64,000 nt of DNA from the NCBI RefSeq assembly GCF_017303295.1, contig NZ_JAFKOK010000005.1, positions 186,001-250,000 of the forward strand, read 5' to 3'. Shown piece by piece: positions 50,457 to 64,000 of this stretch. This stretch comes from Rhodobacter sp. NTK016B (GTDB lineage: Bacteria > Pseudomonadota > Alphaproteobacteria > Rhodobacterales > Rhodobacteraceae). Made by a program: the position numbers and the translations under genes. Positions within the stretch are counted from its first letter, which is position 1; each line of letters starts with the position of its first letter. The notes beneath the pieces are model-generated. The model saw nothing but the letters and a program-made list of their open reading frames with translations. It did not search any database and was not told the DNA's origin.

Positions 50457-53281
<2,825 letters not shown>

Positions 53282-53285
<4 letters not shown>

Positions 53286-53920
53286 AGCCGTCTTTCGACC
53301 TGTCGCTGTACCTCGTGCTCGATCCCGGCCTTTGCGCCGGGATCGGGATGGTGGAAACCGCGCGCCGGGCGGTCGCGGGCGGCGCGACGATGGTCCAGCT
53401 GCGCGACAAGACGGGCGGCACGGCGGCAATGATCGAAACCGGCCGAGCCCTGAAACGCGCGCTTGCGGGAAGCGGGGCGCGGCTGATCGTCAACGACGAT
53501 GTCGAGGCTGCGGTCGCGATCGGCGCGGATGGCCTGCATATCGGGCAGGGCGATATGGCCGTGGCCGAGGCCCGCGCGCGGATCGGGAAGGCGATGCTTC
53601 TGGGCCTGTCGGTGGAAAGCCCCGCGCTGGCTGCGGCGGTCGATCCGCATCTGATCGATTACATCGGCGCCGGGCCGGTCTTTGCCACGCCCACCAAACA
53701 GGACCACAAGCGCCCGGTCGGCTTTGACGGATTGGCGGCGCAGGTCGCGGCCAGCCCGGTCCCGGCGGTCGCCATCGGCGGGATGAAACGCCAACATATC
53801 GCACAGGCCTTCGCCGCCGGTGCGCGGGGCATCGCGGTGGTGTCGGCGATCTGCGGCCAGCCCGATCCGCAAACCGCGGCGCAGGCGATGCGCGAGGAGA
53901 TCGACGCTTTATCCCGCTGA
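53282..53920 (+). CDS. thiE: Thiamine-phosphate synthase ThiE
   Basis: A 212-residue TIM-barrel enzyme joining HMP-PP and thiazole phosphate to give thiamine phosphate. Seen: MVQLRDKTGG near residue 38, LIVNDDVEAAVAIGADGLHIGQGD (residues about 68-91) and GAGPVFATPTKQDHKRPVG for the pyrophosphate-binding loop. It ends the riboswitch-controlled operon and its last 12 bases overlap the convergent thiD gene. Confidence 0.94.
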
Positions 53921-54718
53921 CCGCCAGAGCGCGTGGAAATGATGCACCGGCCCATGGCCTCGGCCGACATCGAGCGCGTCGCTGGCCGCAAGCGCGCCGC
54001 TCAGATAGGCCTTGGCCTGCGCAACCGCCTCGGGCACCGCCATCCGGGGAAGCAGCGCGGCAAGGGCTGAAGACAGCGTGCAGCCGGTGCCGTGGTCGTT
54101 GGTCGTGGCGATGCGTGGCGCGGGAAAAGCGGTGACGCCACTGGGCCCGGCCAGCAGGTCGGTGCTGTCGGCGCTCTCGGTCAGATGACCGCCCTTCAGC
54201 AGCACCCAGTCCGCCCCCAGCGCCTGCAGCGCGGGCAGGGCCGCGCGCATTGACCCGGTATCCCAATCGTCGGGGCGGCCCAGCAGCACGGCGGCCTCGG
54301 GCAGGTTCGGCGTGATGATTGTGGATAATGGCGCCAGCAGGTCGCGCACTGCGGCGACCGCCTCGGGCGCCAGCAGGGCATGGCCGCTTTTCGCCACCAT
54401 CACCGGGTCGAGCACCACATTGCGCGCACTATGGTGCCGCAGCCGGTCCGCCACGGCCTCGGCAATCGCGGCATTCGCGATCATGCCGATCTTGACCGCG
54501 TCGATCCGCACATCGTCGAAGACCGCATCGATCTGATCCACGACGAAGGCGGGTTCAAGCGCCACGAAGGACCGCACCCCTTGGGTATTCTGCGCGACCA
54601 CGGCGGTGATCGCCGAACAGGCATAGCCGCCAAGCGCCGAGATCGCCTTGATATCGGCCTGAATCCCGGCCCCGCCCGACGGATCGGTGCCCGCGATGCT
54701 GAGGATATTGGCGATCAT
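53909..54718 (-). CDS. thiD: Hydroxymethylpyrimidine/phosphomethylpyrimidine kinase ThiD
   Basis: A 269-residue ribokinase-fold enzyme that phosphorylates HMP and HMP-P. Motifs: IAGTDPSGGAGIQADIKAIS (residues about 7-26), LDPVMVAKSGHALL, and the anion-hole DHGTGCTLSSALAA. Its start overlaps the Nudix gene stop by four bases, so both belong to one transcript headed by the second TPP riboswitch. It converges on thiE. Confidence 0.95.
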   Translation of the reverse strand: MIANILSIAGTDPSGGAGIQADIKAISALGGYACSAITAVVAQNTQGVRSFVALEPAFVVDQIDAVFDDVRIDAVKIGMIANAAIAEAVADRLRHHSARNVVLDPVMVAKSGHALLAPEAVAAVRDLLAPLSTIITPNLPEAAVLLGRPDDWDTGSMRAALPALQALGADWVLLKGGHLTESADSTDLLAGPSGVTAFPAPRIATTNDHGTGCTLSSALAALLPRMAVPEAVAQAKAYLSGALAASDALDVGRGHGPVHHFHALWRSAG

Positions 54719-55164
54719 GCCCCGCCCTCCGCCAGCAGCGCGGCGGCTTGCGCGGCGACATCGGCCACGTCTCGGCTGAGCGGCAGGCCCGAGTTCGGAA
54801 GCCCCGCCAGATCGACCCAGCGCGCCTCGAGCGCGTCATCGCCCGCGACCGGCTCGCCCCCGGTCCATTCGCACAAAACGGCGATCAGGATGAAATGGCG
54901 CCGTAGCATCCCGGCCGCGTCCCGGTCGAACGCATCGAGCGCGGTGAAGACCTGCAGCGCCTTGGCGGTGACGCCGGTTTCTTCGTGCAATTCGCGCAGG
55001 GCGGCGGTTTGAAGCGTCTCGCCTTTGTCGATCTTGCCGCCGGGAAAGCCCCACAGGCCCGCATCGGGCGGATTGGCGCGGCGCACCAGCAAAATGTCAT
55101 CCCCCCGGATGACGACGGCCAGCACGGCGGGGATCGGGTGGTCGGGTGTCTGTGGGTTTGGCAT
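54715..55164 (-). CDS. Nudix hydrolase in the TPP-regulated operon
   Basis: A 149-residue Nudix protein. ATG 55164 (MPNPQTPDHPIPAVLAVVIR) is chosen over one 66 bases upstream, because a GAGG site and an SD-masking hairpin sit right before it. The Nudix box GGKIDKGETLQTAALRELHE followed by ETGV is complete. General annotation would be NUDIX/MutT-type NTP pyrophosphohydrolase, but its position as first gene after a TPP riboswitch and coupling to thiD suggest a thiamine-related pyrophosphate substrate (HMP-PP, TPP or damaged forms). This role is inference. Confidence 0.88.
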   Translation of the reverse strand: MPNPQTPDHPIPAVLAVVIRGDDILLVRRANPPDAGLWGFPGGKIDKGETLQTAALRELHEETGVTAKALQVFTALDAFDRDAAGMLRRHFILIAVLCEWTGGEPVAGDDALEARWVDLAGLPNSGLPLSRDVADVAAQAAALLAEGGA

Positions 55165-55166
55165 GG

Positions 55167-55187
55167 CGGCCTCGGGCAATGAGGCCG
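55167..55187 (-). promoter_or_regulatory. Shine-Dalgarno-sequestering hairpin of the Nudix gene
   Basis: On the minus strand CGGCCTC-ATTGCCC-GAGGCCG forms a perfect 7-bp stem whose 3' arm contains the GAGG ribosome-binding site, ending two bases before the ATG. It lies 21 bases past the TPP aptamer and probably is its output. Confidence 0.65.
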
Positions 55188-55208
55188 GCAAGGGCAAGAA
55201 AGCGCTGC

Positions 55209-55324
55209 GGTCCTGTCCCTTCGCCGGCATGATCCGGATCAGGTTCTAAGGGTCACTGCGCTGCGCGGTCGTGGTGTCCGGCCAGCAATATCTCAGCCCC
55301 TTGTCGGGACCCCCCTCGGTGTGT
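55209..55324 (-). ncRNA. TPP riboswitch upstream of the Nudix-thiD operon
   Basis: On the minus strand: GAGGGGGGTCCCGACAAGG, GGCTGAGATATTGC, GTGACCCTTAGAACCTGATC, then CATGCCGGCGAAGGGACAGG. The order and consensus elements match the TPP aptamer, and the sequence closely resembles the thiC riboswitch (including GCGCAGTGACCC). It begins just after a candidate promoter and ends about 45 bases before the Nudix ATG. Confidence 0.95.
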
Positions 55325-56820: not shown

Positions 56821-56858
56821 TTGACAGAGTCATGTTTTGTCGGAATCAATAGTACAAT
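56821..56858 (+). promoter_or_regulatory. Candidate promoter of the oxygenase operon
   Basis: A perfect TTGACA at 56821-56826 in an AT-rich patch. AATCAA (56844-56849, 17-base spacing) and TACAAT (56853-56858, better sequence but too far) are the possible -10 elements. The first oxygenase ATG at 56898 has GGGAGGAG upstream. Confidence 0.4.
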
Positions 56859-56897
56859 AACGTAAGTGAAGTTTCCTGATGCTACGGGAGGAGTGTC

Positions 56898-58391
56898 ATG
56901 AGCCACGACGTGGTCAAAGAATACTCCGGCACGATCGAGCCGGGAGATCACCCCTATCTGCAAGGTCCCTGGGCTCCGCTGCATCAAGAGGTCAACGCTG
57001 ATGACCTAATTTTGCTGGAAGGCGAGGTCCCGACCGATATCGACGGGGTCTACCTGCGCAACACGCAGAATCCGTTGCATCAATCCATGGATCGGTACCA
57101 TCCGTTCGACGGGGACGGGATGATCCATCTGGCGGCCTTTCGCGAAGGAAAGGTGCAGTATCGTAATCGTTTCGTGCAAACCAAGGGCTTGCAGGCCGAA
57201 ATCGAAAGCGGCGGGCGGCTTTGGGCCGGGCTGATGGAAGACCCGGCTTTGTCCAAACGCCCCGGCTGGGGCGCGCATGGCGCGCTGAAGGATGCCAGCA
57301 GCACGGATGTGGTTGTTCATGCCGGCAAGGCGCTATCGACCTATTTCCAATGCGGCGAAGGCTACCGCATGGACCCGCTGACGCTGGATCAGCAGGGTGT
57401 GCCCGACTGGTCGCCCGAACACGGCATCTCGGCCCATACCAAGGTGGATGAAGAAACTGGCGAATTGCTGTTCTTCAACTATTCGAAGACGCCGCCCTAC
57501 ATGCATTACGGCGTCGTCGATCGCAGCGACCGGCTGGTGCATTACACGCCGGTGCCGCTGCCGGGGCCACGCCTACCGCATGACATGGCCTTCACCAAGA
57601 ATTACGCGATCCTCAACGATTTCCCGCTGCACTGGGACCCCGAGCTACTGAAGCGCGACAAGCATGTGGTGCGGTTCTTTAAGGACCAGCCTTCGCGCTT
57701 CGCGGTGATCCCGCGCCGGGGCGGGGCCGAGGATGTCCAGTGGTTCGAGGCCGCGCCGACCTTCGTGCTGCACTGGCTCAACGCCTATGAAGACGGCGAC
57801 GAGATCGTGCTCGACGGGTATTTTCAGGAAGACCCGATGCCCACGAATTACGAGGGGGCGAAGCCGGGCTACGAGCGGATGATGTCCTATCTCGACCAGC
57901 ACAAGATGGGCACCAAGCTGCATCGCTGGCGCTTTAACTTGAAGACCGGCGAGACGCGCGAAGAGCGGCTGGACGACCGGGTGCTGGAATTCGGCATGAT
58001 CAACCAGAAATACGCGGGCAAGCCCTATCGCTACGCCTATTCGGCGGTGCAGGTGCCCGGCTGGTTCATCTTCAACGGCTATGTGAAGCACGACCTCGAA
58101 ACGGGCGAAAGCTGGCAGCTGACCCTGCCCGAGGGGCTCTACGCCAGCGAGGCGCCCTTTGCACCGCGCGTCGGCGCCACGTCCGAGGATGACGGCTATC
58201 TGGTGACCTTCGTGATCAACGAAAAGACCGGCAAGTCCGAAGTCTGGCTGATCGACGCGAAGGATTTCGACAAGGGGGCGGTCTGCAAGCTGCAGCTTCC
58301 GCACCAGCTGGCGAGCGGGACGCATTCATGCTGGGCCAACGGTGCCGATTTCCGCGATGGCGGGATTCTGGCGCGCGCGGCCATGGGCTGA
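56898..58391 (+). CDS. Carotenoid/stilbene cleavage oxygenase family protein 1
   Basis: A 497-residue member of the RPE65/carotenoid cleavage oxygenase family, non-heme iron enzymes that split a C=C bond oxidatively into two carbonyls. The four iron-ligand His appear present: His180 (GISAHTKVDEETGEL), His228 (GPRLPHDMAF), His292 (FVLHWLNAYEDGD) and His476 (ASGTHSCWA). YHPFDGDGMIHLAAF near residue 75 is the family N-terminal motif. Bacterial relatives cut lignostilbenes, isoeugenol or apocarotenoids. Start ATG follows GGGAGGAG. First gene of a six-gene operon; the next starts 12 bases on. Confidence 0.92.
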   Translation: MSHDVVKEYSGTIEPGDHPYLQGPWAPLHQEVNADDLILLEGEVPTDIDGVYLRNTQNPLHQSMDRYHPFDGDGMIHLAAFREGKVQYRNRFVQTKGLQAEIESGGRLWAGLMEDPALSKRPGWGAHGALKDASSTDVVVHAGKALSTYFQCGEGYRMDPLTLDQQGVPDWSPEHGISAHTKVDEETGELLFFNYSKTPPYMHYGVVDRSDRLVHYTPVPLPGPRLPHDMAFTKNYAILNDFPLHWDPELLKRDKHVVRFFKDQPSRFAVIPRRGGAEDVQWFEAAPTFVLHWLNAYEDGDEIVLDGYFQEDPMPTNYEGAKPGYERMMSYLDQHKMGTKLHRWRFNLKTGETREERLDDRVLEFGMINQKYAGKPYRYAYSAVQVPGWFIFNGYVKHDLETGESWQLTLPEGLYASEAPFAPRVGATSEDDGYLVTFVINEKTGKSEVWLIDAKDFDKGAVCKLQLPHQLASGTHSCWANGADFRDGGILARAAMG

Positions 58392-58403
58392 GGGAGGAAA
58401 ACC

Positions 58404-59888
58404 ATGGGACTCGAGACGATACCCGCCGAACAGGATTGGCTGGTCGAGAATGCCTCGATGCAAGGGGCCTTCGCGCCGATCCATAGCGAGATCGAAGCGC
58501 AGGATCTGGAAGTGATCGGCGAACTGCCCGAGGATCTGAACGGTCTTTATGTGCGCAACGGGCCCTCGCCCGCTCATGCGCCGCACGGGAAGTATCACTG
58601 GTTCGACGGCGACGGGATGCTGCACGCGGTGCGCTTTCAGGGGGGCCGCGCCACCTATCGCAACCGGATGGTGGAAACCGACGGTCTGAAAGCCGAACGC
58701 GAGGCCGGGCGCGCGCTGTGGCCGGGGCTCAAGGACCGGATGCCCGATGGCACGCTGCCCGATGACGCGCTGAAGAACACCGCGAATACCGATGTGAAGT
58801 TCCACAACGGCAAGCTCTATTCGATGTGGTACCGGGGCGGCGCGGTCTATACCGTCGATCCCGGCAGCCTGCAGACGCTGGGCAAGCTGGAACAGGACCC
58901 CCGGCTGGTGGGATTGCAGATCTCGGCCCACAGCCGGATCGACGAGGCGACGGGCGAATTCGTGTTCTTCGCCTATGGCAACCGCCATCCCTACATGCAT
59001 TACGGGGTGATCGGGCCGGATGGCGCGCTGAAAACCTTCATGCCGGTCGAGCTGCCGGGGCCGCGCCTGCCGCATGATTGCGCGATCACGCCGAATTTCA
59101 CGATCCTGCACGACTTCCCGCTGGTCAATAACCGCGAGGCGCTGCAACGGGGCCGCTATTCGCTGGAATTCCATCAGGACTGGCCGACCCGTTTTGCCGT
59201 CATCCCCCGGCACGGCACGCCCGATCAGATCCGCTGGTTCGAGTTCAGCCCGCGCTACATGCTGCATGTCTCGAATGCGTGGGAGGAAACCAACGCGCAG
59301 GGCGAACGCGAGCTGGTCATGCTCGGCACGCCCTATGCCATGCCGCGCGGCTACGATGGCGGGCTGGATGTGCAGCGGCTGCTGTTTACCATCGGCACAC
59401 AGGGCACGGATTACGAGCTGTATCAGTGGCGCATGAACCTCGATACCGGGGCCACGCGCGAAGGGGTTGTTGACGACATCCTCAACACCGAATTCCCGAT
59501 GATCAACACCCGCTTTCAGGGGGTGAAGAACCGCTACACCTATAACGTTCTGATGGGGCGTCCGCGCACGCTTGAACAGCCGCATTTCGCCGGGCTGGTG
59601 AAATACGACCTGCAGACCGGCGCTGCCGTCGCCTATCACCCGGGCGAGGGCTATTGGTTCTCGGAAGCGCCCTTCGCGCCGCGCGACGGGGCGGTCGAAG
59701 AAGATGACGGCTATGTCGTGGGCTTCGTGTGGAACGGGCTGGCCAACAGATCGGAAGTCTGGGTCACCGATGCGCGCGACATCTCGAAAGGTCCCATCGC
59801 GCGGGTGATCGTGCCGCAGCGGGTGCCGCATGGCTTCCATTCCTGCTGGGTGCGCGAAGATCAGCTGAGTGCGGCGCAGGTGGCCTGA
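58404..59888 (+). CDS. Carotenoid/stilbene cleavage oxygenase family protein 2
   Basis: A 494-residue paralogue of the preceding gene with the same architecture. The probable iron His are His176 (QISAHSRIDEATGEF), His224 (GPRLPHDCAI), His288 (YMLHVSNAWEE) and His479 (PHGFHSCW). WFDGDGMLHAVRF matches the family N-terminal motif. Identity between the two is partial, so this is old duplication or separate recruitment, and the substrate or cleavage site may differ. AGGGAGG precedes the ATG. Its stop shares one base with the next start (TGATG). Confidence 0.92.
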   Translation: MGLETIPAEQDWLVENASMQGAFAPIHSEIEAQDLEVIGELPEDLNGLYVRNGPSPAHAPHGKYHWFDGDGMLHAVRFQGGRATYRNRMVETDGLKAEREAGRALWPGLKDRMPDGTLPDDALKNTANTDVKFHNGKLYSMWYRGGAVYTVDPGSLQTLGKLEQDPRLVGLQISAHSRIDEATGEFVFFAYGNRHPYMHYGVIGPDGALKTFMPVELPGPRLPHDCAITPNFTILHDFPLVNNREALQRGRYSLEFHQDWPTRFAVIPRHGTPDQIRWFEFSPRYMLHVSNAWEETNAQGERELVMLGTPYAMPRGYDGGLDVQRLLFTIGTQGTDYELYQWRMNLDTGATREGVVDDILNTEFPMINTRFQGVKNRYTYNVLMGRPRTLEQPHFAGLVKYDLQTGAAVAYHPGEGYWFSEAPFAPRDGAVEEDDGYVVGFVWNGLANRSEVWVTDARDISKGPIARVIVPQRVPHGFHSCWVREDQLSAAQVA

Positions 59889-60298
59889 TGCCGGATCTGG
59901 GAGGAACCTGGCATCTGGTCGGTTGGGAGATCGAAACGGAGGGGCGCGTCACGCATCCCTTCGGCGAGTCCCCGACCGGGATGATCTGCTATACCGACGA
60001 TGGCTTCATGTCGGCCTGCATCGCCCGCGCGGATCGTCCGCGCTGGTCGACCGGCAATCCGCGCAAGGCGCCCGATGCCGAGCGGATCGCCGCCTTTGAG
60101 AGCTATTTTCACTACGCGGGCACGTGGCGGATCGAAGAGCGCGAGGGCATTCCCCATGTCGTCCATGCCGTCACCCACAGCCTGAATCCCGACTTTCCCG
60201 GCACCGAACAGGTGCGCCGCATCGACCTTGAGGGCGGCGCGCTGACCCTGTCGGCGCAGGAAGGTCCCCGTCATCATCGCCTGCGCTGGAGACGCTGA
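59888..60298 (+). CDS. Lipocalin-like domain protein
   Basis: A 136-residue protein starting at ATG 59888 in the TGATG overlap with the oxygenase gene. LGGTWHLVGWEIETEGRVTHPF at the start and GMICYTDDGFMSACIARADRP match the lipocalin-like_5 (PF13924-type) family. No signal peptide, so cytoplasmic. A beta-barrel carrier or small binding protein for a hydrophobic substrate or product of the oxygenases is plausible. It overlaps the next gene by one base (TGATG). Confidence 0.82.
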   Translation: MPDLGGTWHLVGWEIETEGRVTHPFGESPTGMICYTDDGFMSACIARADRPRWSTGNPRKAPDAERIAAFESYFHYAGTWRIEEREGIPHVVHAVTHSLNPDFPGTEQVRRIDLEGGALTLSAQEGPRHHRLRWRR

Positions 60299-61980
60299 TG
60301 TTCGATCACGCCGCCACACTCGACCGCGCGCGTCAGGCCTGTGCCGAGCGCGCCTGCTGGTCGCCCTATCCCGAAATGCCCAAGCTCTACCCCGATGCAG
60401 AAAGCGCCGCCCCCGCGGGGCAGGCCGCGTTCGAGGCGATGCTGGGCAAGCCCTTCGCGCTGGATCTGCCGGGCGTAACCGGGCAGGCGGGCGAAGAGCT
60501 GTCGCCTTATACGCAAGAGCCCCTTGGCATCACCTATCCGCAGGCCGACTCCGACGCGCTGTTTGCCGCCGCCAAGGCCGCGATGCCGGGCTGGGCCGCC
60601 GCCGGGGTCGACACCCGCCTCATGCTGTTGATGGAGGGGCTCGACCGGCTCTACCGCGACCATCTGTTCACGCTGGTCCATTCGGTCATGCATACGGCGG
60701 GCCAGAGCTATAACATGGCCTATGCCGGGTCGGGGGTGAACGCGCTCGATCGCGGGATCGAGGCGCTGGTCTATGCCGAACAGGCGATGCGCGCGGTCAC
60801 GCCGCAGGCGCATTGGGCGCGGCGGTTCGGTCGTGATGAGATTTCGTTGGAAAAGACCTATCGGCTGGTGCCGCGCGGCGTCGCGGTCTGCTTCACCTGC
60901 GCAAGCTTTCCGACATGGAACGCGTGGCCGTCGATGCTTGCCAGCCTTGCCACCGGCAACGCGGTGATCGTCAAGCCGCATCCCGCCAGCGTCTTGCCGA
61001 TGGCGATCACCGTTCGCGTTTTTCGTGACCTGCTGGACGAGCAGGGCTTCGATCCAAACCTTGTGACGCTGTGTCTCGATACGCTCGACGCGCCCTTGGG
61101 CAAGGTGCTGATCAAGCATCCCGATTGCGCCATCGTCGATTTCACCGGCTCGGCCCGTTTCGGTCAGTGGGTCGAGGCCAACGCCCATCCCGCCATCGCT
61201 TTCACCGAAACCTCGGGCTGCAACACCGTGGTGCTGGCCGGGGCCGAGGATCTGGACGCGGCGATCCGCTCGCTGGCGACGACCATGTGCATGTTCTCGG
61301 CGCAGATGTGCACGAGCCCGCAGAATGTCTATCTGCCGCCGCAGATCGACACGTCCGATGGCCCGGTTGCACGCGAAGAGGTCGCTACGCGGCTGGCTGC
61401 CGCCATCGCCCGCCTGACAGAGGATCCGCGCCGCGCGTCGATGATCCTTGCCACAGTGCAGGGGGCGGGAACGCTGGACCTGATCGCGCGGATGCGCGAC
61501 GAGGGACGCGCGCGGGGCAAGGTGCTGCTCGATAGCCGCCGCTATGAGCATCCCGATTTCCCCGGCGCCCGCACCGCGACGCCGCTTCTGGTGCAGCTGG
61601 GCAAAGAGGCGCGCGATCTCTATGCCGAGGAACGCTTCGGCCCGATCGGCTTCGTCATTGACTGCGACTCGGCCGAGGATGCGCTGGAACAGGCCACGAC
61701 GGATGCGGCGCAGAAAGGCGGGATCACCGGCTTTCTCTATGCCCGGGACGAGGATCTGATTGCCCGCGCCGAAGACGCCTATTCCCGCGCCGGTGCGCAG
61801 CTGACCATCAACCTGACCGGCGCCATGCCGCTCAATTTCGCTGCCGCCTATAGCGATTACCACGTCACCGGGCTGAACGGCGCGGGCAATGCGGCGCTGA
61901 CCACGCTGGCTTTCGTCGCCTCGCGCTTTGCCGTCACTCAATCCCGCCGTCCTGTTCCGCCGTCCCGAGAGGTCCGATAA
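60298..61980 (+). CDS. paaN: PaaN-type aldehyde dehydrogenase
   Basis: A 560-residue aldehyde dehydrogenase family protein of the PaaN type (long N-terminal region, no hydratase domain). Seen: VMHTAGQSYNMAYAGSGVNALDRGIEAL, CFTCASFPTWNAWPSMLASLATGNAVIVKPHPAS (cofactor binding), the Glu of IAFTETSGCN, and the catalytic Cys in MFSAQMCTSPQNV. Without the rest of the paa cluster here, its likely job is to oxidise an aldehyde made by the oxygenases. The start and stop overlap both neighbours by one base. Confidence 0.85.
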   Translation: MFDHAATLDRARQACAERACWSPYPEMPKLYPDAESAAPAGQAAFEAMLGKPFALDLPGVTGQAGEELSPYTQEPLGITYPQADSDALFAAAKAAMPGWAAAGVDTRLMLLMEGLDRLYRDHLFTLVHSVMHTAGQSYNMAYAGSGVNALDRGIEALVYAEQAMRAVTPQAHWARRFGRDEISLEKTYRLVPRGVAVCFTCASFPTWNAWPSMLASLATGNAVIVKPHPASVLPMAITVRVFRDLLDEQGFDPNLVTLCLDTLDAPLGKVLIKHPDCAIVDFTGSARFGQWVEANAHPAIAFTETSGCNTVVLAGAEDLDAAIRSLATTMCMFSAQMCTSPQNVYLPPQIDTSDGPVAREEVATRLAAAIARLTEDPRRASMILATVQGAGTLDLIARMRDEGRARGKVLLDSRRYEHPDFPGARTATPLLVQLGKEARDLYAEERFGPIGFVIDCDSAEDALEQATTDAAQKGGITGFLYARDEDLIARAEDAYSRAGAQLTINLTGAMPLNFAAAYSDYHVTGLNGAGNAALTTLAFVASRFAVTQSRRPVPPSREVR

Positions 61981-62909
61981 TGGCTGATCCGCTTCGCCTG
62001 CCGGTATTCGCCGCGCCCATGTTCCTCGTCTCGGGTCCCGAACTGGTGATCGCCGCCTGCAAAGCCGGGATTGTCGGTGCCTTTCCGACGCCCAATTGCC
62101 GCAGCATCGAACAGCTCGACGACTGGATGACCCGGATCCGGGCCGAGGTCGGCGAGGCCCCATGGTGCGCCAATCTGGTGACGCATTCCTCGAATGCGCG
62201 GTTGCCGCAGGATCTCGAGATGATCGACAAGCACAAGCCGCCCTTCGTCGTGACCGCGCTGGGATCGCCGAAACCGGCCATCGAGACGGTGCATGCCTAT
62301 GGCGGCAAGGTGATCGCCGATGTGACGAGCGTTGCGCTGGCGCGCAAGGCGGTCGCGGCGGGGGCGGACGGGCTGGCCTGTATCTGCGCCGGGGCGGGCG
62401 GTCATACCGGGATGCTGTCGCCCTTTGCCTTTGTCAGCGCGGTGCGCGCCTTTTTCGACGGTCTGGTCATCGTCGGCGGCGGTATTACCGATGGCGCGGG
62501 CATTGCCGGGGCGATCGCGGCGGGAGCGGATTATGTCTATATGGGCACGCGCTTCATCGCCGCCGAGGAAAGCATGGCGCCCGCAGCCTACAAGGACATG
62601 CTGGCCGCCGCCCAGATCGAGGATCTGCTGATTAGCGCCGGGATCACCGGCACCCCGGCAAGCTGGCTGAAGCCGTCGCTGCGCGACAACGGGATGGACC
62701 CCGACGACATGCCCGACGCGCCGGGCCGCGCCTATGACAGCAGCCAGAGCCTGAAAGGCAAGCGCTGGGCCGATGTCTGGTCGGCGGGGCAGGGCGTCGG
62801 CGCGGTAACCGGGACGGAACCAGCCTCGGCCATCGTCGCGCGGCTGGAAGCGGAATATGACGCCGCGCGCGGACGCCTGTCGTCGCGGCTGGACCGGAGC
62901 GTCGCATGA
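61980..62909 (+). CDS. Nitronate monooxygenase family flavoprotein
   Basis: A 309-residue FMN-dependent TIM-barrel protein (2-nitropropane dioxygenase/FabK-like family). LPVFAAPMFLVSGPELVIAACKAG at the start, VIADVTSVALARKAVAAGADGL, CAGAGGHTGMLSPFAF (the phosphate/His region) and GGGITDGAGIAGAIAAGADYVYMGTRFIA are the family core. Relatives include nitronate monooxygenases, quinone reductases and enoyl reductases, so the chemistry here is open. Starts at TAATG with paaN and overlaps the thiolase by four bases. Confidence 0.86.
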   Translation: MADPLRLPVFAAPMFLVSGPELVIAACKAGIVGAFPTPNCRSIEQLDDWMTRIRAEVGEAPWCANLVTHSSNARLPQDLEMIDKHKPPFVVTALGSPKPAIETVHAYGGKVIADVTSVALARKAVAAGADGLACICAGAGGHTGMLSPFAFVSAVRAFFDGLVIVGGGITDGAGIAGAIAAGADYVYMGTRFIAAEESMAPAAYKDMLAAAQIEDLLISAGITGTPASWLKPSLRDNGMDPDDMPDAPGRAYDSSQSLKGKRWADVWSAGQGVGAVTGTEPASAIVARLEAEYDAARGRLSSRLDRSVA

Positions 62910-64000
62910 CTTTCATCCTTGGCACCGCGCAAAGTGATTTCGCCCGCGCCTGGTCGCGCGAGGGGCTGGATATCTCGGACATGATCCGGGACTCGGTTCT
63001 GGACGTTCTGGAAGACGCGCAGGTCACGCCCGATCAGGTCGAGAGCATCCATGTCGGCAACGCATTCGGCGAGATGCAGCGTCAGCAGGCGCATCTGGGC
63101 GCCATGGTCGCGCAGGTGGTGCCCGAGCTTTGGGGTGTTCCGGCGATGCGTCACGAAGGGGCCTGCGCCAGTGCCTCGCTCGCCGTGCTGGCGGCGATGG
63201 CCGAGATCGAGGCGGGGCGCTACGATTGCGTGCTGGTCGTCGGTGCCGAGGAGTTCAAGAACACCAAGGGGGACGCCGCCTCGGTCAACCAGAACGCCGC
63301 CGGCTGGCAGGGGCACGAGGATATTGACTGCCGCTTCCTGTGGCCCGCCGTGTTCGGGCTGGCCGCGCAGGAATACGACGCGCGCTATGGGCTGGACCGG
63401 CGCCATCTCAACCGGATCGCCGAATTGAATTACGGGAATGCCCGAAATAATCCGCTGGCGCAGACACGCGGCTGGGCTTTCAACGCGCTCAGCTTCACCG
63501 ATGACGACAACGCCAACCCGGTGATCGAGCCGGGCACGCGGCGGCAGGATTGCGGGCAGATCACCGATGGTGCGGCCTCGCTGGTTCTGGCCTCGCCCGC
63601 CTTCGCGGCGGAATGGTCGCGCCGCACCGGCAAGCGCGCGGCGCGGATCGCGGGCTGGGGCCATCGCAATGCCGGGCTGCGCTTTCGCGACAAGCTTGAA
63701 CGGCAGGGCGACTACGTCTTTCCGCATGTGCGCCAGACCATCGAGGATGCATGGCGCCGCGCCGGGATCGCCGGGATCGAGGCGGTGAGCGGGGTCGAGA
63801 CGCATGATTGTTTCACCACCACCGAATACATCGCCATCGACCATCTGGGGCTGACCCCGCCGGGGCAAAGCTGGCAGGCAGTCGAGGATGGCAGCATCGA
63901 GGCGGGGGGCCGCTGCCCGGTGAACATGTCGGGCGGGCTGATCGGCTGCGGCCATCCGGTCGGCGCGACGGGTACGCGGATGCTGCGCGACGCGGCGCGG
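62906..64000 (+). CDS. Thiolase family protein (acetyl-CoA acetyltransferase/SCPx-like), 3' truncated by window edge
   Basis: Open from ATG 62906 to the window end (365 residues visible). Nucleophile Cys in MRHEGACASASLAVLAAMAE (residues about 82-101), ETHDCFTTTEYIAID, and GLIGCGHPVGATGTRML carrying the catalytic His of GHPxGxTG. SCPx-type thiolases often work with a DUF35/OB-fold partner and act on branched, steroid or aromatic side chains. It would shorten the acid made by the aldehyde dehydrogenase after CoA activation. No ligase is visible before the edge; it may lie downstream. Confidence 0.87.
   Translation, partial: MTFILGTAQSDFARAWSREGLDISDMIRDSVLDVLEDAQVTPDQVESIHVGNAFGEMQRQQAHLGAMVAQVVPELWGVPAMRHEGACASASLAVLAAMAEIEAGRYDCVLVVGAEEFKNTKGDAASVNQNAAGWQGHEDIDCRFLWPAVFGLAAQEYDARYGLDRRHLNRIAELNYGNARNNPLAQTRGWAFNALSFTDDDNANPVIEPGTRRQDCGQITDGAASLVLASPAFAAEWSRRTGKRAARIAGWGHRNAGLRFRDKLERQGDYVFPHVRQTIEDAWRRAGIAGIEAVSGVETHDCFTTTEYIAIDHLGLTPPGQSWQAVEDGSIEAGGRCPVNMSGGLIGCGHPVGATGTRMLRDAAR

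Follow-up and report, generated by a model that had tools for sequence, protein, structure and literature searches.

A 14-gene operon with two oxygenases of a separate carotenoid cleavage oxygenase clade in Rhodobacter sp. NTK016B and its possible role in the catabolism of an alkene-containing acid

In Rhodobacter sp. NTK016B, two genes for oxygenases of the carotenoid cleavage oxygenase (CCO) superfamily, CCO1 and CCO2, open a run of genes that begins near the end of the 64,000-nucleotide stretch of DNA analysed here (the window, lying in contig C55 of a 4.84 Mb genome) and continues beyond it. A sequence-only reading of the window had described six nearly gapless genes at its end, coding for the two oxygenases, a lipocalin-like protein, a PaaN-type aldehyde dehydrogenase, a nitronate-monooxygenase-like flavoprotein and a thiolase, and had taken them for one operon. 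All six frames are open and in place, and profile matches confirm the families. The operon is borne out as well and extends to 14 genes, all on the plus strand:

56821..56867, plus strand: promoter/operator-like element before CCO1, TTGACAGA ... CGGAATCAATAGTACAATAACGTA, function putative
56898-58391, plus strand: CCO1, PF03055 415.2 bits; Gln at the Glu-135 position, GPRLPHD (R225); model with a predicted local distance difference test score (pLDDT) of 87.6
58404-59888, plus strand: CCO2, PF03055 421 bits; Arg at the Glu-135 position, GPRLPHD (R221)
59888-60298, plus strand: lipocalin-like protein, PF13924 104.5 bits; candidate carrier of a hydrophobic intermediate
60298-61980, plus strand: PaaN_2-type aldehyde dehydrogenase, TIGR02288 583.1 bits (cut-off 578.75)
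61980-62909, plus strand: FabK/NMO-family flavoprotein, PF03060 87.5 bits; candidate acyl-CoA double-bond oxidoreductase
62906-64114 (window ends at 64000), plus strand: thiolase-1, SCP-x-like, NF004936 511.6 bits (cut-off 375)
64162-65346, plus strand: thiolase-2, TIGR01930 312 bits (over 240.55) and NF006090 455 bits (below the cut-off of 514)
65343-66278, plus strand: tandem HxlR regulator, PF01638 in two stretches
66275-67159, plus strand: livH, PF02653
67163-68239, plus strand: livM, PF02653
68236-69000, plus strand: livG, PF00005
68997-69773, plus strand: livF, PF00005
69781-71616, plus strand: AMP-forming coenzyme A (CoA) ligase, PF00501
71688-72860, plus strand: livK, periplasmic binding protein, PF13458

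The run occupies 56898-72860 with intergenic gaps of -4 to 71 bases. The junctions from CCO1 through thiolase-1 measure 12, -1, -1, -1 and -4 bases, and the letters reported for the last four (TGATG, TGATG, TAATG and ATGA) are indeed there. Both outer limits had to be moved: position 56821, from which the region had been counted, is the TTGACA of the promoter-like element and not a gene start, and 64000 is a mere window edge, beyond which thiolase-1 is completed and eight more plus-strand genes follow. The operon has nearly the G+C content of the window (65.6% against 65.8%), so its composition does not hint at a recent import. The best relative found is Pararhodobacter marinus, whose CCO1 is 96% identical, and the strain itself probably belongs to Pararhodobacter. 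The element upstream of CCO1 is kept as a footprint across seven Pararhodobacter-type loci. We considered it as a regulon marker and rejected the idea because its 24-base core (56841-56864) has no second copy in the genome even with up to three mismatches allowed. Directly after the operon, the opposite strand carries a further LIV-type importer set (L079:17701-19710, L080:1-2202). The flanking DNA had been expected to hold a CoA ligase, a DUF35 protein and a transporter; ligase and transporter are present, and DUF35 (PF01796), the partner of SCP-x-like thiolases, has no match in the genome of NTK016B, while 6 of 14 control genomes match it.

Membership of the two oxygenases in the CCO superfamily is clear from scores far above the PF03055 threshold of 27 bits, and the CCO1 model resembles solved CCO structures with Z 32.7-42.8 among the matches listed (best 50). 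For comparison across genomes, we collected 75 loci by protein search, making 76 with the window, and aligned their 92 oxygenases with the references LsdA, LSD4 and NOV1, whose LSD4 numbering is used here. The four iron-binding histidines, earlier thought to be retained in both oxygenases (H180, H228, H292 and H476 in CCO1; H176, H224, H288 and H479 in CCO2), are confirmed, their columns being His in all 95 aligned sequences.

In LSD4, Tyr-101 and Lys-134 hold the 4-hydroxyl group of the substrate (PMC8191317, in part), and the equivalent pair Y136/K169 is described as essential in MapADO (PMC12308385, in part). This phenol clamp is found in none of the 92 locus oxygenases, CCO1 and CCO2 included, whereas LsdA, LSD4, NOV1 and 3 of 12 fetched control oxygenases (L091-L093) have it. 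Position 101 is Leu in 68, Ile in 19 and another residue in 5; position 134 is Tyr in 73, Trp in 12, Phe in 5 and another residue in 2. The operon might nevertheless be thought to degrade phenolic stilbenes or phenylpropenes (lignostilbene, isoeugenol, 4-vinylguaiacol) with ordinary LSD-type enzymes, as LIV importers often serve aromatic acids and the superfamily and fold are shared. Bacterial enzymes of such a kind have been characterised (PMC6700365, in part). We regard this explanation as very unlikely, given the missing clamp and scores (186-258 bits) that fall well short of the 650 and 800 bits required. The missing clamp argues against 4-hydroxystilbenes and isoeugenol without proving another substrate, and a stilbene or phenylpropene substrate was accordingly rejected among the candidates named earlier; an apocarotenoid-like substrate is retained as a possibility.

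Catabolism of carotenoid-derived long polyenes (apocarotenals, apocarotenoic acids or retinoids) is the corresponding proposal: the oxygenases would shorten the chain, the aldehyde dehydrogenase would yield apocarotenoic acids, and ligase and thiolases would finish the degradation. Both oxygenases find their best match among solved sequences in a plant carotenoid 9,10-dioxygenase (220 and 261.4 bits), the clamp positions are hydrophobic or aromatic, and a lipocalin fold is at hand. However, lignostilbene enzymes lie slightly ahead of CCD1 in the structural comparison of CCO1 (Z 42.8 against 39.1), and the three NCBIfam equivalogs give CCO1 and CCO2 only 186-258 bits, with cut-offs of 650-800. 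For the apo-carotenoid 13,14-dioxygenase (NF052295, cut-off 675) the two reach 215.1 and 246.3 bits, and the oxygenases of L050 and L081 reach 217.3 and 222.7. Relatives encode this dioxygenase as another gene: the equivalog cut-offs are exceeded by separate genes for apo-carotenoid 13,14-dioxygenase (L085, L088, L090), lignostilbene dioxygenase (L092) and NOV2 (L093), none with thiolase-1, flavoprotein or HxlR as neighbours. A review, in the part available to us, also states that only one of two oxygenases of Sphingopyxis alaskensis cleaved carotenoids (PMC5133782), and either of them may be a clade member. Taken together, we find long polyenes a doubtful substrate, to be kept in mind all the same.

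The surroundings of the iron also set these oxygenases apart. Three second-sphere carboxylates are described as conserved in the CCO superfamily, a general statement also made in PMC12051055 (in part). In LSD4 the acidic residues pairing with three of the four histidines are Glu-135, Glu-353 and Glu-418. Glu-353 and Glu-418 are kept in 92/92 locus oxygenases, and Glu-135, the partner of the second iron histidine, in only two (the second gene of L071 and L078); the others have Gln (68), Met (11), Arg (9), Leu (1) or Val (1). All 90 oxygenases lacking this Glu have an Arg three residues before the second histidine, in a GPRxPHD context, and the two that keep it do not have this Arg. The control L082, with Ile at the Glu-135 position and the Arg, fits the same group and was removed from the 12 controls (L082-L093, from genomes of the same set). 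The remaining 11 keep Glu-135 without the Arg; position 353 is Gln in L089 and Asp in L093. A tree built from 59 rows after removal of the signature columns shows a single change of the trait, with a Shimodaira-Hasegawa-like approximate likelihood ratio test (SH-aLRT) support of 99, obtained by a quick method with several long branches. From these alignments, we conclude that the 90 putative GPRxPHD oxygenases constitute a single clade, to which none of the named families cleaving carotenoids or stilbenes belongs. In the literature that we searched, with subscription papers mostly outside it, we found no description of the operon or the clade, which is no proof of absence.

Such an exchange might mean that the oxygenases no longer cleave alkenes in the usual way and act as isomerases, or as oxygenases on another group such as an enol or a diketone. 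RPE65 is an isomerase of the CCO superfamily, and the replacement in 90/92 together with the clade-specific Arg would suit a changed chemistry. The titles of solved-structure matches include mutants of Synechocystis ACO with Glu150 changed to Gln and Asp; we take Glu150 to be the equivalent of Glu-135. The retention of all four histidines and of Glu-353 and Glu-418 in 92/92, and of the occluding Thr (T136) in 14/14 aligned, speaks against a changed chemistry, and an aldehyde dehydrogenase near 16 of the 76 loci fits an aldehyde product, though 60 are without it. We consider this explanation unlikely.

Related gene orders were found elsewhere, which removes the concern that the arrangement occurs nowhere else: the gene set recurs across other genera and classes, many bacteria of water and soil among them, and is not private to NTK016B. 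Heuristic gene calling missed the lipocalin and thiolase-2 of the window, so counts built on it are lower bounds, and the main ones were redone by tblastn. At set identity limits, the 76 loci hold thiolase-1 in 47, HxlR in 48, the flavoprotein in 33, a CoA ligase in 29, thiolase-2 in 23, PaaN in 16 and the lipocalin in 15, all 15 of the latter falling within the 16 PaaN loci; 22 loci, several on short contigs, hold none of the seven genes searched. For linkage we used the 52 clade loci with at least 5 kb on each side, the window excluded. Within 5 kb, 38 have thiolase-1, 29 HxlR and 26 the flavoprotein, and 42/52 have at least one of the three, against 0/11 of the control oxygenases (Fisher p=5.7e-7). 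Controls were compared under the same rule and at the same E 1e-8 as the loci, and an earlier run at E 1e-15 also gave 0/11; for one control, L088, the sequence on one side of the gene is limited to about 2.1 kb.

Sampling by taxon gave a similar picture for oxygenase and thiolase-1. In a sample of Sphingopyxis (the genus of Sphingopyxis sp. H053), 43/60 genomes have an oxygenase orthologue of 88-100% identity and 41/60 have thiolase-1. The 40 genomes with both carry them on the same contig and strand without exception, thiolase-1 lying 1709-1874 bases downstream. A class sample of 190 genomes contains the oxygenase in 8, thiolase-1 in 6 and both in 5; without the genome of NTK016B, the oxygenase occurs in 7 of 189 and thiolase-1 in 5, with 4 shared (p=3.4e-6).

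Thiolase-1 belongs to the SCP-x-like group by NF004936, and its Cys87, His300, Cys302 and His350 are kept in 49/49 others; Cys91 and His349 of thiolase-2 are kept in 36/36, and its Asn317 position is Met in 23/36. The aldehyde dehydrogenase passes the PaaN_2 cut-off, with a Cys motif at 336 (16/16 relatives) and a Glu motif at 302 (14/16); all 13 remaining genes belong to families outside phenylacetate degradation. In the flavoprotein, a GGHTG motif stands at position 140, with GGH in 35/35. The nitronate-monooxygenase-like label given to it agrees with the PF03060 match, while its nearest solved structures are FabK enoyl reductases and a putative nitroalkane dioxygenase. It scores 110.2 bits against 453 for the FabK enoyl-ACP reductase (TIGR03151). 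IpdC, a flavin enzyme with 30% identity to a FabK, works alongside a thiolase and has a steroid CoA ester as its substrate (PMC5380842, in part). By analogy, this FabK-like IpdC may be a better model for the flavoprotein than nitronate monooxygenase. The small protein has both a Lipocalin_5 profile (PF13924) and a lipocalin-type barrel. Its model (pLDDT 90.7) has a bacterial lipocalin as top match by Z (Z 12.6, root-mean-square deviation 3.3 over 99 residues; Foldseek E 1.8e-3), with retinol-binding protein poorer (Z up to 9.4).

The operon might instead build a product or a signal that the oxygenases trim, as thiolases can work in both directions and some SCP-x-like relatives are biosynthetic, for example PhlC, which is among the matches. 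We consider this highly improbable, a shade more so than phenolic substrates, in view of the importer genes, CoA ligase and aldehyde dehydrogenase in a single run and of the TonB receptors and hydrolases at Sphingomonadales loci. TonB receptors are added in 15/76 loci, a beta-lactamase-family protein lies near the oxygenase cluster in seven Sphingomonadales loci (L020, L024, L025, L027, L029, L035, L040) and a tannase-family protein in three (L032, L036, L037). The two hydrolase families hint at an ester precursor, and together with the receptors they fit release and uptake of an outside compound.

The genome of NTK016B contains a second, related cluster (L081, contig C22:47001-66000). It encodes a third clade oxygenase, in which Met takes the place of Glu-135, along with an alpha/beta hydrolase, flavoprotein, CoA ligase, SCP-x-like thiolase, HxlR-type regulator and TRAP importer. 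Relatives of this cluster precede the CCO1-CCO2 operon by a few kb in P. aggregans (L008) and in the RHODO2 assembly (L005), an arrangement that suggests joint action of the two clusters. Neighbourhoods also vary in other ways. Nine loci (L012, L015, L018, L024, L039, L040, L041, L052, L068) have extended surroundings with several SnoaL/NTF2-like proteins, short-chain dehydrogenases, a DapB-like oxidoreductase and DUF1295 membrane proteins, and three gammaproteobacterial loci (L028, L042, L074) have a Macro-domain protein inside the oxygenase-thiolase neighbourhood. In the window itself, thiamine genes (ThiC, thiamine monophosphate (TMP) synthase, hydroxymethylpyrimidine (HMP)-phosphate kinase and a NUDIX protein) lie upstream at 50677-55230; we saw no link to the operon.

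Direct observation covers which genes are present, their order and conservation, and the residues of the active sites. On this basis, we propose that the operon is substrate-inducible and serves to import and degrade a non-phenolic organic acid with an alkene group, which may resemble isoprenoids or apocarotenoids, and we give this proposal an even chance of being right. Family knowledge suggests the single reactions; the class of substrate and the sequence of steps are our guess. The LIV-type importer would take up the acid and the AMP-forming ligase would convert it to its CoA ester. CCO1 and CCO2 might then split C=C bonds with O2 into two carbonyls, and the PaaN-type dehydrogenase might oxidise the resulting aldehyde. 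The FabK/NMO-family flavoprotein could adjust a double bond next to the CoA ester, after which thiolase-1 and thiolase-2 would split 3-oxoacyl-CoA products. The lipocalin may hold an intermediate of low solubility, and sensing of the substrate may fall to the tandem HxlR protein. Abscisic acid was considered as a substrate since bacteria degrade it, and was rejected by reasoning: its published intermediates, as far as the sources available to us describe them, need no such oxygenase, and no gene evidence for it was found.

The thiolases stand without their usual partners, as none of the 14 genes codes for an acyl-CoA dehydrogenase, enoyl-CoA hydratase or hydroxyacyl-CoA dehydrogenase. At the other loci, beta-oxidation families are not among the 25 commonest in the 109 non-core neighbours sampled from 261 usable ones (270 in total), a scan that could miss families represented only once or twice; short-chain dehydrogenases account for 9/109, and an acyl-CoA dehydrogenase in L036 is a rare case. 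An oxygenase cut that yields the beta-keto product directly thereby becomes thinkable. In such a hypothetical chemistry, the clade oxygenase would act on a methyl-branched alkenoic acid, free or as the CoA ester, and cut it at the beta,gamma double bond to give a 3-oxoacyl-CoA for the thiolases, making the three missing enzymes unnecessary and bypassing the block that methyl branches of isoprenoid acids impose. We hold this shortcut to be rather doubtful.

Several observations weigh against the proposed import and catabolism of an alkene-containing acid. Without Glu-135, the oxygenases might be weakly active or changed in activity, and one of the two S. alaskensis oxygenases, perhaps the clade member, did not cleave carotenoids. 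Ten of the 52 clade loci, and L082, lack all three neighbours within 5 kb, so that some clade members may serve another purpose. In the class sample, oxygenase and thiolase-1 share a contig only in NTK016B itself and in G157, being on different contigs of fragmented assemblies in G001, G065 and G099, and in the sample of its family the oxygenase occurs in 1/100 genomes, namely its own. It is equally possible that the missing beta-oxidation steps are done by enzymes encoded elsewhere.

In summary, the earlier observation is confirmed and its interpretation as a whole is partly supported, including the association of an alkene-cleaving-type oxygenase with an aldehyde dehydrogenase and thiolases. 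A catabolic operon is an ordinary kind of object; what distinguishes this one is an unusual, widely conserved core and an oxygenase clade with altered iron surroundings. If our proposal is right, direct tests become possible for a catabolic operon that is widely shared, being near-core among the sampled Sphingopyxis genomes and scattered elsewhere, and a large CCO-type branch leaves the carotenoid- and stilbene-cleaving groups to which simple annotation would assign it. The exchange of one of three second-sphere carboxylates provides a natural experiment on the tuning of O2 activation.

Compared with known systems, the clade shares with LsdA, LSD4 and NOV1 (PF03055) the fold, the four iron histidines, Phe-59 (F in 88/92), Glu-353 and Glu-418, but differs in the missing Tyr-101/Lys-134 pair, the replaced Glu-135 with one extra residue in that loop, the GPRxPHD at the second histidine and scores far under the family cut-offs. 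Superfamily and iron ligands are also common to the apo-carotenoid 13,14-dioxygenase (NF052295, NACOX1 type), whose true members keep the Glu and are other genes in the relatives, whereas the operon oxygenases stay well under its cut-off. PaaN_2 of phenylacetate degradation (TIGR02288) is matched just over the cut-off and in its catalytic Cys and Glu motifs, without its pathway neighbours. The steroid C/D-ring pathway (FadD3, IpdC, FadA6) likewise combines an acyl-CoA ligase, a FabK-like flavoprotein acting on a CoA ester and a thiolase (PMC5380842, in part); the 14 genes include no IpdAB or crotonase gene, their place being taken by a CCO-type oxygenase. Rubber (polyisoprene) catabolism shares oxygenolytic C=C cleavage, aldehyde oxidation, CoA activation and thiolysis (PMC8538451, in part), but it relies on Lcp proteins and ordinary beta-oxidation genes, whereas this operon has a CCO-type oxygenase and no such genes.

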